From Gelidibacter salicanalis (GTDB lineage: Bacteria; Bacteroidota; Bacteroidia; Flavobacteriales; Flavobacteriaceae), in the NCBI RefSeq assembly GCF_007997285.1, contig NZ_VORX01000002.1, positions 620,001 to 684,000 on the forward strand: a stretch of DNA of 64,000 bases, given 5' to 3'. The position numbers and the translations under genes were made by a program. This document shows, piece by piece, positions 19,774-22,633 of the stretch. A model generated the notes under the pieces. The model saw only the letters and a program-made list of their open reading frames with translations. It searched no databases and was not told the DNA's origin. Numbering within the stretch: the stretch's first letter is position 1; each line of letters opens with the position of its first letter.

Positions 19774-19798
19774 CACATTTTCCTTTTCGGAAAATGTG
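19774..19798 (+). terminator. Hairpin after icmF at the edge of the repeat array
   Basis: CACATTTTCC (19774-19783) pairs perfectly with GGAAAATGTG (19789-19798) around a 5-nt loop, 10 nt after the icmF stop. It lacks a clean T-run, so termination is uncertain; the 3' arm belongs to the first 85-bp repeat. Confidence 0.4.
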
Positions 19799-20818
19799 TG
19801 TGAGTCGCTTATCCCGCTATTTCAGCGGGATCTTTAGAAGTTTAAGCCAAATCTTGAATTGAACTTAATTTTCGGAAAATGTGTGTGAGTCGCTTATCCC
19901 GCTTTTTCATCGGGATCTTTAGAAGTTTAAGCCAAATCTTGAATTGAACTTAATTTTCGGAAAAATGTGTGTGAGTCGCTTATCCCCCTTTTTCAGCGGA
20001 TCTTAAGCAGAATTAAGCCAAATCTTGAATCGAGCTCAATTTTCGGAAAATGTGTGTGAGTCGCTTATCCCGCTATTTCAGCGGGCTCTTAAGAAGTATA
20101 AGCCAAATCCTGAATCGAACTTAATTTTCGCAAAACTTGTGTGAGTCGCTTATCGCGCTTTTCAGCGGGCTCTTAAGAAGTTCAAGCCAAATTTCGAATA
20201 GAACGTAATTTTCGGAAAATGTGTGTGAGTCGCTTATCCCGCTTTTTCAGCGGGATCTTAAGAAGTTCAAGCCAAATTTCGAATAGAACGTAATTTTCGG
20301 AAAATGTGTGTGAGTCGCTTATCCCGCTTTTTCAGCGGGATCTTTAGAAGTTCAAGCCAAATTTCGAATAGAATGTAATTTTCGGAAAATGTGTGTGAGT
20401 CGCTTATCTCGCTTTTTCAGCGGGATCTTTAGAAGTTCAAGCCAAATTTCGAGTAGAATGTAATTTTCGGAAAATGCGTGTGAGTCGCTTATCCCGCTTT
20501 TTCAGCGGATCTTAAGCAGAATTAAGCCAAATCTTGAATCGAGCTCAATTTTCGGAAAATGTGTGTGAGTCGCTTATCCCGCTATTTCAGCGGATCTTAA
20601 GCAAAATTAAGCCAAATCCTGAATCGAACTTAATTTTCGCAAAACTTGTGTGAGTCGCTTATCGCGCTTTTCAGCGGGCTCTTAAGAAGTTTAAGCTAAA
20701 TCTTGAAAAGAACATAGTTGTCACAAAACTGGTGTGAGCCGTTTATCCCGCTATTTCAGCGGGATTCTAAAAATCTTAAGCCAAACCTTAAATCGAACTT
20801 AATCTTTGCAAATCTTGT
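19784..20818. repeat. Array of twelve tandem ~85-bp repeats, each with a GC-rich hairpin
   Basis: The landmark TGAGTCGC (TGAGCCG in the last unit) recurs at 19801, 19886, 19972, 20057, 20142, 20226, 20311, 20396, 20481, 20566, 20651 and 20735, so the period is 84-86 bp, mostly 85. Each unit contains ATTTTCGGAAAAT (a 13-bp dyad), then GTGTGAGTCGCTTATCCCGCT with a loop and AGCGGGAT (8-bp stem in the best copies), then an AT-rich AAG..TTAAGCCAAAT segment. The period is not a multiple of three and no frame stays open, so it is non-coding. It fills the space between icmF and the cysteine-rich peptide gene and contains no spacers. Units 3-5 resemble units 9-11, a higher-order duplication. Confidence 0.95.
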
Positions 20819-20911
20819 TAACTCTAAGATTATTTTAAAAATATACGCTTCAAAATGCATCTTTTTAAGACATTTCACGTCTACTCATTGAACTTATAAA
20901 AAATAAACATC

Positions 20912-21013
20912 ATGAATAATAATCAATGTGCATGTAAATGCGACAACTGTCAAAAAGGAAATTGTGCGGCTTGCACGTGCGAAAATTGTACTTGCAAAAA
21001 CTGCAACTGTTAA
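20912..21013 (+). CDS. Cysteine-rich 33-residue micropeptide, metallothionein-like
   Basis: ATG at 20912 to TAA at 21013 encodes 33 residues of which 11 are cysteine: C6, C8, C10, C13, C18, C21, C23, C26, C28, C31 and C33, in CxC and CxxC spacing, with Asn, Lys and Thr between and no aromatic residue. This is the composition of a metallothionein, a cytoplasmic thiolate metal chelator, although it is shorter than BmtA/SmtA-type proteins and lacks histidine. It ends directly in cysteine. The sigma-factor gene with a cysteine-rich tail begins 78 nt downstream on the same strand. I know of no named family; the metal-binding role is inferred from composition. Confidence 0.72.
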   Translation: MNNNQCACKCDNCQKGNCAACTCENCTCKNCNC

Positions 21014-21091
21014 GCTTAATTTAAAATGATCGTAAAGAGCGTCTGTTTTAGTAATTTTATACTAGAGCAGATGCTTTTTAAATGCACTTTT

Positions 21092-21631
21092 ATGAAAACG
21101 AAAACGGTTTGGGATTTATATGGCGAAGACGTTAAATACTTTATATTAAGTAAAGTAAAAAACGATACCCTTGCCGATGATTTGCTTCAAGAAACGTTTA
21201 TAAAAGTACATATTAAATTACGCAGCTTAGTAGATGAGTCCAAATTGAAATCGTGGGTACTTGCGATTGCCAGACATACTATGATGGACCATTTTAGAAG
21301 TCAAAAATTGGTCAGTGACCACTCCACTGGTAACCTTGTGTCAGAGGAAACCACACCTGATCACACTAAAGAGGATTGCTTACACGGCATCATCAAGAAT
21401 TTACCTAGAAAATACAGAGAGCCTTTATTGTTGGCCGATATTCAGGGTTTAAAACAAGCCCAGATTTCCGAACGTTTAAACTTACCGCTGCCTACAGTCA
21501 AATCGCAAATACAACGCGGTAGAAAACTTATTTCACAAGGTTTTGTAGACTGCTGTGGTTTTAAAATAAATGATAACGGCTTTTTAGTGGGCGAATTAAA
21601 GGAGCGTGAGCACTGTAAAGTGTGTCACTAA
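21092..21631 (+). CDS. SigZ-like ECF RNA polymerase sigma factor with C-terminal cysteine tail
   Basis: A 179-residue sigma-70 family ECF factor. Region 2 covers about residues 8-75 (DDLLQETFIKVH, SWVLAIARHTMMDHFR), region 4 about 95-150 (LPRKYREPLLLADIQGLKQAQISERL and the HTH LPLPTVKSQIQRGRKL). After region 4 a short extension carries C154-C155 and ends HCKVCH (H174, C175, C178, H179), a plausible zinc or thiol-sensing module as in SigZ-type factors. The ATG at 21092 is chosen because sequence upstream is not sigma-like. No separate anti-sigma gene is adjacent. The cysteine-rich micropeptide just upstream suggests a metal or redox signal, which is inference. Confidence 0.88.
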   Translation: MKTKTVWDLYGEDVKYFILSKVKNDTLADDLLQETFIKVHIKLRSLVDESKLKSWVLAIARHTMMDHFRSQKLVSDHSTGNLVSEETTPDHTKEDCLHGIIKNLPRKYREPLLLADIQGLKQAQISERLNLPLPTVKSQIQRGRKLISQGFVDCCGFKINDNGFLVGELKEREHCKVCH

Positions 21632-21675: not shown

Positions 21676-22071
21676 TTACAAAGTCATCATCCACGTATGC
21701 TGCAAGCTTCTGAATTTCTTCAACTCACTTCTCAAAATTGGCAGATAATCCCGCCCGTCACTATGACTTTTTTCTAAACGTCGACAATTTTTATAAAGTA
21801 GGGTGGTCAAACGTTCTAAAGAAGCGATGTGTTTGTATTTTTTATCGGAATGACGTTCCAATTCTGCATTAACAATTTCTGGAGCCAAGGAGGTGGATTG
21901 CTGCACAATATCACCAGAGAAATAAATATGATGATCTTCAGAACCATCTGATTTTAAATAAGATAAATCCTGATTTAAATACGTGGAAATACTTCTGGAA
22001 AGCGTAATGATATCCATGGCCTTTTTATAAATAGGCAAATCTGAGAGATGAGAGGGAATAGGATACAACAT
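21676..22071 (-). CDS. Four-helix-bundle-like protein (S23-like)
   Basis: A 131-residue, mostly helical protein. The segment LPIYKKAMDIITLSRSIS near residues 11-28 and the later LERLTTLLYKNCRRLEK resemble the four-helix-bundle family (23S intervening-sequence-like), which usually opens with L-x-V/I-Y-K-K-A. ATG 22071 gives that N-terminus; the frame extends upstream through non-family sequence. A TAAATTTG box on the minus strand (22099-22092) precedes it. Function unknown; family members occur within rRNA intervening sequences or as free-standing genes. It is divergent from the Lrp regulator and may share its control region. Confidence 0.62.
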   Translation of the reverse strand: MLYPIPSHLSDLPIYKKAMDIITLSRSISTYLNQDLSYLKSDGSEDHHIYFSGDIVQQSTSLAPEIVNAELERHSDKKYKHIASLERLTTLLYKNCRRLEKSHSDGRDYLPILRSELKKFRSLQHTWMMTL

Positions 22072-22091
22072 TTTTCTTAAAAGCAATTTAT

Positions 22092-22151
22092 CAAATTTAC
22101 AGACAAATTCAGACCTATTATAATCGATTTTAAAGAATTGATGTATATTTG
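22092..22151. promoter_or_regulatory. Divergent promoter region between helix-bundle gene and lrp-like gene
   Basis: Minus-strand -7 box TAAATTTG at 22099-22092 and plus-strand -7 box TATATTTG at 22144-22151, the latter 38 nt before the Lrp-like ATG. Confidence 0.45.
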
Positions 22152-22189
22152 CTTTAATAATTAAAGCAGAATAGTTAATTTTCATTAAG

Positions 22190-22633
22190 ATGAGCATAGA
22201 TAGCCTGAATTGGAAGATTTTAAAATGTTTACAGAATAATGCGCGTCAATCGAATGCTGAAATTGGCCGTCAAGTGGGCGTCAGTTCACCGGCCGTTTCT
22301 GAACGCATCAAAAAAATGGAAGATGCCGGAATTATACAGGGCTATCACGCATTTGTCTCGCCTTTTGAAGCGGGGTATCAACTCAAGGCCATAATTACTT
22401 TGCGTGCCTTTATGGGCATGCTTAAACCTTTTTTGGAAAAAGTAAAAACTTACGACGAAGTGTTGAATTGCTACCGCATTACGGGCAATGAAAACATCGT
22501 CATGGAGGTGGTCTTAAAAAATCAGAAACATTTGGAAAGTTTTATCGACCAACTTATCGTCTATGGCGAAACCAAAACGCAGATTGTCTTGTCGCATGTC
22601 ATTAAATACAATGAAGTCCGTCCCATAAAATAA
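22190..22633 (+). CDS. Lrp/AsnC family transcriptional regulator
   Basis: A 147-residue regulator with an N-terminal HTH (LNWKILKCLQNNARQSNAEIGRQVGVSSPAVSERIKKM is the classic asnC-type start; residues about 6-43) and a C-terminal RAM ligand-binding/oligomerisation domain (about 65-140; NCYRITGNENIVMEVV). The family responds to amino acids. The target is unclear: the divergent helix-bundle gene and the convergent YpdA/MFS operon are the nearest candidates. Its 3' end is 27 nt from the convergent ypdA-like gene, with no clear terminator in between. Confidence 0.93.
   Translation: MSIDSLNWKILKCLQNNARQSNAEIGRQVGVSSPAVSERIKKMEDAGIIQGYHAFVSPFEAGYQLKAIITLRAFMGMLKPFLEKVKTYDEVLNCYRITGNENIVMEVVLKNQKHLESFIDQLIVYGETKTQIVLSHVIKYNEVRPIK

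Follow-up and report, generated by a model that had tools for sequence, protein, structure and literature searches.

A conserved cysteine-rich micropeptide and SigZ-like sigma factor gene pair, apparently self-controlled, in marine flavobacteria

The peptide and sigma factor genes of Gelidibacter salicanalis

Two adjoining genes on the forward strand of a 64-kb stretch of Gelidibacter salicanalis DNA (the window) are the subject of this analysis. An earlier note on this DNA had described a 33-residue peptide with 11 cysteines followed by a SigZ-like sigma factor ending in CC...HCKVCH; both genes were found, the sigma factor ending in DCC...EHCKVCH. The metallothionein-like peptide (MNNNQCACKCDNCQKGNCAACTCENCTCKNCNC) is encoded at 20912-21013, contains 11 Cys among its 33 residues with no His and no aromatic residue, and has the Cys pattern CxCxCx2Cx4Cx2CxCx2CxCx2CxC. 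Its small size, its content of about 30% Cys in CxC and CxxC motifs and its conserved Cys positions are those expected of a metallothionein in the functional sense, and binding of d10 metals is predicted. Searches of the peptide against Pfam and NCBIfam, metallothionein profiles included, gave no match at E<=1, and a search against PDB sequences gave no match. As the window peptide fits none of these family models, others like it have probably been overlooked in most annotations.

The earlier note had named a peptide frame or a gene pair lacking conservation as results that would speak against its proposal. The frame is instead under strong purifying selection, with a pN/pS of 0.148 among 10 Gelidibacter peptides. 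Nearly all of the 66 flavobacterial loci with a sigma orthologue (tblastn) have a peptide of 32-34 residues with the same Cys pattern just upstream and on the same strand; the conserved peptide, nearly invariant in length, is thus present in more than 60 loci. Among 54 peptides of exactly 33 residues, nine of the 11 Cys columns are invariant and the remaining two are conserved in 51/54 and 53/54. TGT and TGC interchange freely, and in nine of the 11 columns the Cys codon changes are only synonymous. Conservation is spread along the whole length of the peptide and is concentrated on Cys.

The second gene (21092-21631, forward strand) encodes a sigma factor of 179 residues. Its matches to Sigma70_r2 and Sigma70_r4_2 (PF04542, 43.7 bits; PF08281, 55.8 bits) both exceed the cut-off and identify it as an ECF (group 4) sigma-70 factor with no domains beyond sigma2 and sigma4, and its structural fold matches are to SigH, SigW and AlgU. 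The presence of this reading frame and its Cys tail had been reported correctly in the earlier note, while the start at 21026 had to be moved to 21092, since orthologues mostly align from Met23 (ATG at 21092) and relatives have in-frame stops upstream. The bases preceding the Met23 codon form a hairpin in which those stops lie. The SigZ models were the best NCBIfam scorers and covered nearly the full length of the protein (next best SigM, 92.7 bits), but neither curated cut-off was reached (NF007215, 164.1 against 212 bits; TIGR02959, 150.7 against 168.65 bits). Being under both, the protein is named SigZ-like rather than SigZ.

Three Cys features distinguish the sigma factor. Cys96 (codon 21377-21379) lies in the linker between sigma2 and sigma4, Cys154-Cys155 (codons 21551-21556) lie at the end of sigma4, and C175-K-V-C178 (21614-21625) forms a C-terminal CxxC, giving a tail spacing of CC-x19-CxxC. 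The comparison set of 35 SigZ-like sigma factors was drawn from Bacteroidota, Gammaproteobacteria, Bacilli, Myxococcota and one Anaerolineales MAG. C96 and C155 are invariant across these phyla, with C154 (at least 90%) and C178 nearly so; in 27 sequences C175 is invariant and C178 is kept in at least 90%. The linker Cys and the CC pair are common to the Vibrio and Priestia SigZ proteins (NF007215/TIGR02959), whereas the Priestia plasmid SigZ proteins lack the final CxxC that the Gelidibacter protein has. Solved ECF sigma structures match only to about residue 154, and the C-terminal CxxC falls beyond this point. An AlphaFold (AF2) model gave a normal two-domain ECF fold (pTM 0.44) in which the last residues and the domain arrangement are of low confidence, so a common metal site formed by these Cys residues remains a proposal. 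Among Gelidibacter the sigma factor is 66-75% identical while the neighbouring icmF and lrp products are mostly 91-99% identical (window 21676-22633 and loci L019-L027), and the sigma factor is therefore diverging much faster.

Linkage, promoter and intergenic hairpin across genomes

The earlier note had proposed a search for the gene pair in relatives, and the pair proved to be kept. In a sample of 250 Flavobacteriaceae genomes from about 236 genera, a close sigma orthologue (E<=1e-60) was present in 29, and all 29 have the peptide; by coordinates, the two genes adjoin on the same strand. The Cys pattern of the peptide end was matched in 32 of the 250 genomes against one match in a reversed control, and pattern and sigma factor overlap in 28 genomes (Fisher p about 1e-31). 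The 29th sigma-bearing genome likewise has the peptide upstream of the sigma gene. Three genomes showed the peptide pattern without the sigma factor, and the two that were inspected are small or incomplete. Conservation of the pair extends to about 27 of the genera sampled. One MAG has an intact promoter but a frameshifted peptide gene and stops in the sigma gene, which indicates that the two genes decayed together. No anti-sigma gene was found among the neighbours in the window or adjacent to the pair in relatives, as the earlier note had stated for this locus. Together the two genes form a conserved, apparently self-controlled pair in marine flavobacteria. Two loci of small or incomplete flavobacterial genomes (L287 and L288) encode stand-alone peptides of 30-32 residues with 11 Cys, with no sigma gene and no evident promoter copy.

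An ECF-type promoter, TGCATCTTT-N13-CGTCTA, lies at 20856-20883 on the forward strand, its first base 56 nt from the peptide ATG. The element TGCATCTTT-N13-(C/A)GTCTA, of fixed length, lies upstream of the peptide at virtually every flavobacterial locus examined; its first half can read CGCATC or TGCGTC, for example, and its second half TTGTCTG or AGTCCT. The G. salicanalis genome has a single exact copy, and so do seven of the nine Gelidibacter genomes, the operon copy being one base off in the other two. A wider regulon in the G. salicanalis genome was considered and rejected: a looser motif gave one extra match, which has no T-run, and matches with two mismatches were about as frequent as in the control.

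The promoter is usually the sole copy in a genome, and additional copies were sought in two samples. The 250 family genomes contained 25 sites against one in the reversed control; 18 precede the operon, six appear to be chance matches, and one lies 51 nt ahead of a CDF cation exporter gene (TIGR01297, 263 bits, cut-off 82) in a genome where the operon is present too. In 60 Tenacibaculum genomes there were 26 sites against none in the reversed controls. Twenty of these stand directly before the peptide, five before a DUF3703 gene (Pfam, 6e-37) followed by peptide and sigma factor, and one before a cadmium-family P-type ATPase gene (TIGR01512, 502 bits, cut-off 313). The rare additional promoter-bearing genes are thus metal exporters and DUF3703, with one CDF and one ATPase as the off-operon exporter sites in the close clade. 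With a single promoter in most genomes, that of G. salicanalis included, the link to metals rests on the minority with extra sites. In the Tenacibaculum loci L201, L207, L208 and L220, the DUF3703 gene is under the same promoter ahead of peptide and sigma factor, which ties a family of unknown function to the circuit.

Between the two genes, at 21033-21080 on the forward strand, a hairpin followed by a U-run is predicted to act as a leaky terminator or attenuator. For the window hairpin the folding z-score is -5.7; six other loci range from -2.6 to -6.8. Every genus folded has a strong hairpin, trailed by U residues, between the peptide stop and the start of the sigma gene. The hairpin sequence varies by genus, and in 15 aligned sequences 10 of the 17 pairs show compensatory changes. 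A search of Rfam gave no match. Most simply read, the hairpin would be a leaky terminator yielding more peptide mRNA than sigma mRNA. At one locus (L212:1758-2360) a gene for a PEMT/ICMT-like membrane methyltransferase is inserted between peptide and sigma factor.

SigZ-like sigma factors in the wider clade and related systems

When 296 Bacteroidota genomes were searched with a profile, 42 proved to have SigZ-like sigma factors. Outside the close clade their genes adjoin other Cys-rich peptides (26-43 residues, upstream or downstream) or arsM, ArsI/CadI or ACR3 genes. In 26 distant SigZ-like loci the motif TGCRTCTTT-N12/13-CGTC was found at 15 sites, against none in the reversed control and none in shuffles. 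Five of these sites precede the sigma gene itself, at least two precede Cys-rich peptides, two precede arsM and one precedes ArsI/CadI; some stand before genes not obviously connected with metals (a MATE transporter and a PhzF-like gene). A Myxococcota MAG (L086:2710-3480) has a promoter-like motif, a Cys-rich ORF and a SigZ-like sigma factor with a Cys tail in the same order. The neighbourhoods of plasmid SigZ genes are heterogeneous, with the exception of a Hymenobacter plasmid that has arsB and arsC nearby. The shared motif order and the metal-type targets of the distant loci suggest that the pairing of promoter and sigma factor is old and that its outputs are genes of thiophilic-metal defence. 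From this we advance, as a tentative generalization at somewhat under even odds, that SigZ-like sigma factors may make up a wide and so far undescribed class that senses metal(loid)s without an anti-sigma factor and has a promoter code of its own (TGCRTCTTT-N12/13-CGTC). A Cys-rich micropeptide, serving as detoxifier and feedback element, would be the default output, with genes for arsenic, cadmium or zinc resistance repeatedly attached to the same promoter. In the Gammaproteobacteria (L085, L088 and L089) the SigZ-like sigma factor ends in CC...CKxC (CKNC or CKSC), and the product of the downstream gene (DUF6428, confirmed in L089) itself ends in CC in L088 and L089.

The peptide resembles prokaryotic metallothioneins of the SmtA/BmtA type (PF02069) in being small, in having about one third Cys in CxC and CxxC motifs, and in lying next to a putative metal-response regulator. 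It differs in its length of 33 residues, its lack of His and aromatic residues and its lack of a Pfam match. Metallothioneins of the SmtA type are controlled by an ArsR/SmtB repressor, whereas the Gelidibacter peptide would be under a sigma factor. We know of no metallothionein-type peptide gene driven by a co-encoded sigma factor instead of a repressor, and this one would be the first.

Several sigma factors are known to carry their own metal sensor. CorE, activated by Cu, and CorE2, activated by Cd and Zn, sense these metals through C-terminal Cys residues without an anti-sigma factor, the specificity of CorE2 being set by a CC pair, and OrbS, also without an anti-sigma factor, is inhibited by Fe(II) through C-terminal Cys residues (PMC3107203, PMC8999054, PMC9023288). 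The Cys-rich domain (CRD) of CorE has four invariant Cys with a 181/184/192/194 spacing (PMC3107203), and CorE-like proteins are recognized by a CXC motif in the sigma2-sigma4 linker (PMC8999054). Like CorE and CorE2 of Myxococcus xanthus (former ECF44, now ECF238), the Gelidibacter sigma factor has no linked anti-sigma gene, a C-terminal Cys cluster and a linker Cys feature, and we count the metal-homeostasis genes of the CorE/CorE2 regulon as a further likeness. In contrast, its tail spacing departs from the C-C-x3-C-x2-C-x-C of CorE2, and its linker has the single invariant C96 in place of CXC. Judged by these two Cys signatures, the sigma factor is outside the CorE group; it is also closest to the SigZ models, and its main target is the Cys-rich peptide in its own operon. 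The on-board C-terminal Cys sensor predicted for the Gelidibacter protein, together with the absence of an anti-sigma factor, recalls OrbS of Burkholderia cenocepacia (ECF243), which differs in being inhibited by Fe(II), in its siderophore regulon and in its Cys motif. In the open-access full texts searched we found no report of a signal or Cys-rich partner for SigZ and no description of a peptide-sigma pair of the Gelidibacter type. The present analysis supplies SigZ-like sigma factors with a concrete, testable function and a predicted promoter and regulon and, if correct, would extend the sigma factors with on-board metal sensors (CorE, CorE2 and OrbS) to a clade found throughout the Bacteroidota.

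A proposed metal-response circuit and its alternatives

We propose, with a probability of about 70%, that the peptide-sigma operon is a compact, self-regulating unit that responds to thiophilic metals (Zn/Cd/Pb, joined by As(III) in the wider clade). Free of an anti-sigma factor, the sigma factor would be switched on by a metal-thiolate site built from linker Cys96, Cys154-155 and Cys175/178 and would bring RNA polymerase to the promoter ahead of its own operon; recognition of this motif by the sigma factor is suggested by their co-occurrence. The first gene would then yield the peptide, which would chelate the metal. The hairpin would terminate most transcripts, so that the peptide would be in excess and some read-through would renew the sigma factor. 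Capture of the metal by the peptide would remove the inducer and close the loop, and in some genomes exporter and accessory genes (CDF, P-type ATPase, DUF3703) would have joined the response by gaining the same promoter.

Metal binding by the sigma factor and by the peptide is predicted from sequence, and binding would activate the sigma factor rather than inhibit it, because the outputs are detoxifying. The extra promoter copies before the CDF, ATPase and DUF3703 genes and those before the distant arsM and ArsI/CadI genes independently point to thiophilic metals. Going by the exporter types, the likeliest inducers are Zn, Cd and Pb, to which As(III) would be added in the wider clade. The suggestion of the earlier note, in which a metal or thiol signal acts through the Cys tail and the peptide is a chelator or partner, gains support from the metal genes behind the extra promoter copies.

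The same Cys residues could serve a thiol-redox circuit, in which the tail would sense disulfides or electrophiles, the peptide would be a sacrificial thiol buffer and metals would be secondary. The CC and CxxC motifs are able to form disulfides, and an OsmC-family (peroxide/thiol) gene adjoins the operon in Olleya, Lacinutrix, Winogradskyella and locus L033. That gene has no promoter copy, however, and the extra copies stand before metal exporters and arsenic genes rather than peroxidases or thioredoxins; the CxC and CxxC spacing of the peptide is moreover of the metal-thiolate cluster type, and we regard a redox circuit as unlikely. The peptide might instead regulate the sigma factor directly, as a minimal anti-sigma factor or metal donor, and not act as a bulk chelator. 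This would suit the strict pairing and adjacency of the two genes, their joint decay in one MAG and the fact that most genomes share no target other than the peptide and the sigma factor itself. Yet the peptide gene comes first, and the hairpin behind it would tend to put the peptide in excess. In four distant relatives a Cys peptide with its own motif copy is encoded downstream of the sigma gene, as expected of a regulon member. The distant peptides are unrelated apart from their Cys and thus offer no conserved protein interface, which makes direct regulation less probable still. A short, Cys-rich peptide of nearly invariant length could also be the precursor of a modified product or signal whose production the sigma factor regulates. 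We consider this very improbable, as no conserved modification enzyme or dedicated exporter lies beside the peptide, which has no split into leader and core and is conserved mainly on Cys along its whole length.

The OsmC-family gene itself (L029:2322-2795 and L033:3695-4162) is found upstream or downstream of the operon in several genera. The icmF, four-helix-bundle and Lrp neighbours of the pair are conserved, but were rejected as partners because in Tenacibaculum and Aquimarina the pair persists with different neighbours. The repeat array that the earlier note had grouped with the peptide and sigma factor does not belong to the system, since in other Gelidibacter only 0-3 copies of its unit follow icmF and a second array is present at another site of the genome (G000:C8:306501-306838). 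In the window it is a tandem array of 12 copies of 85 bp following icmF (19784-20803), and its unit has a palindromic CCCGC...GCGGG core.
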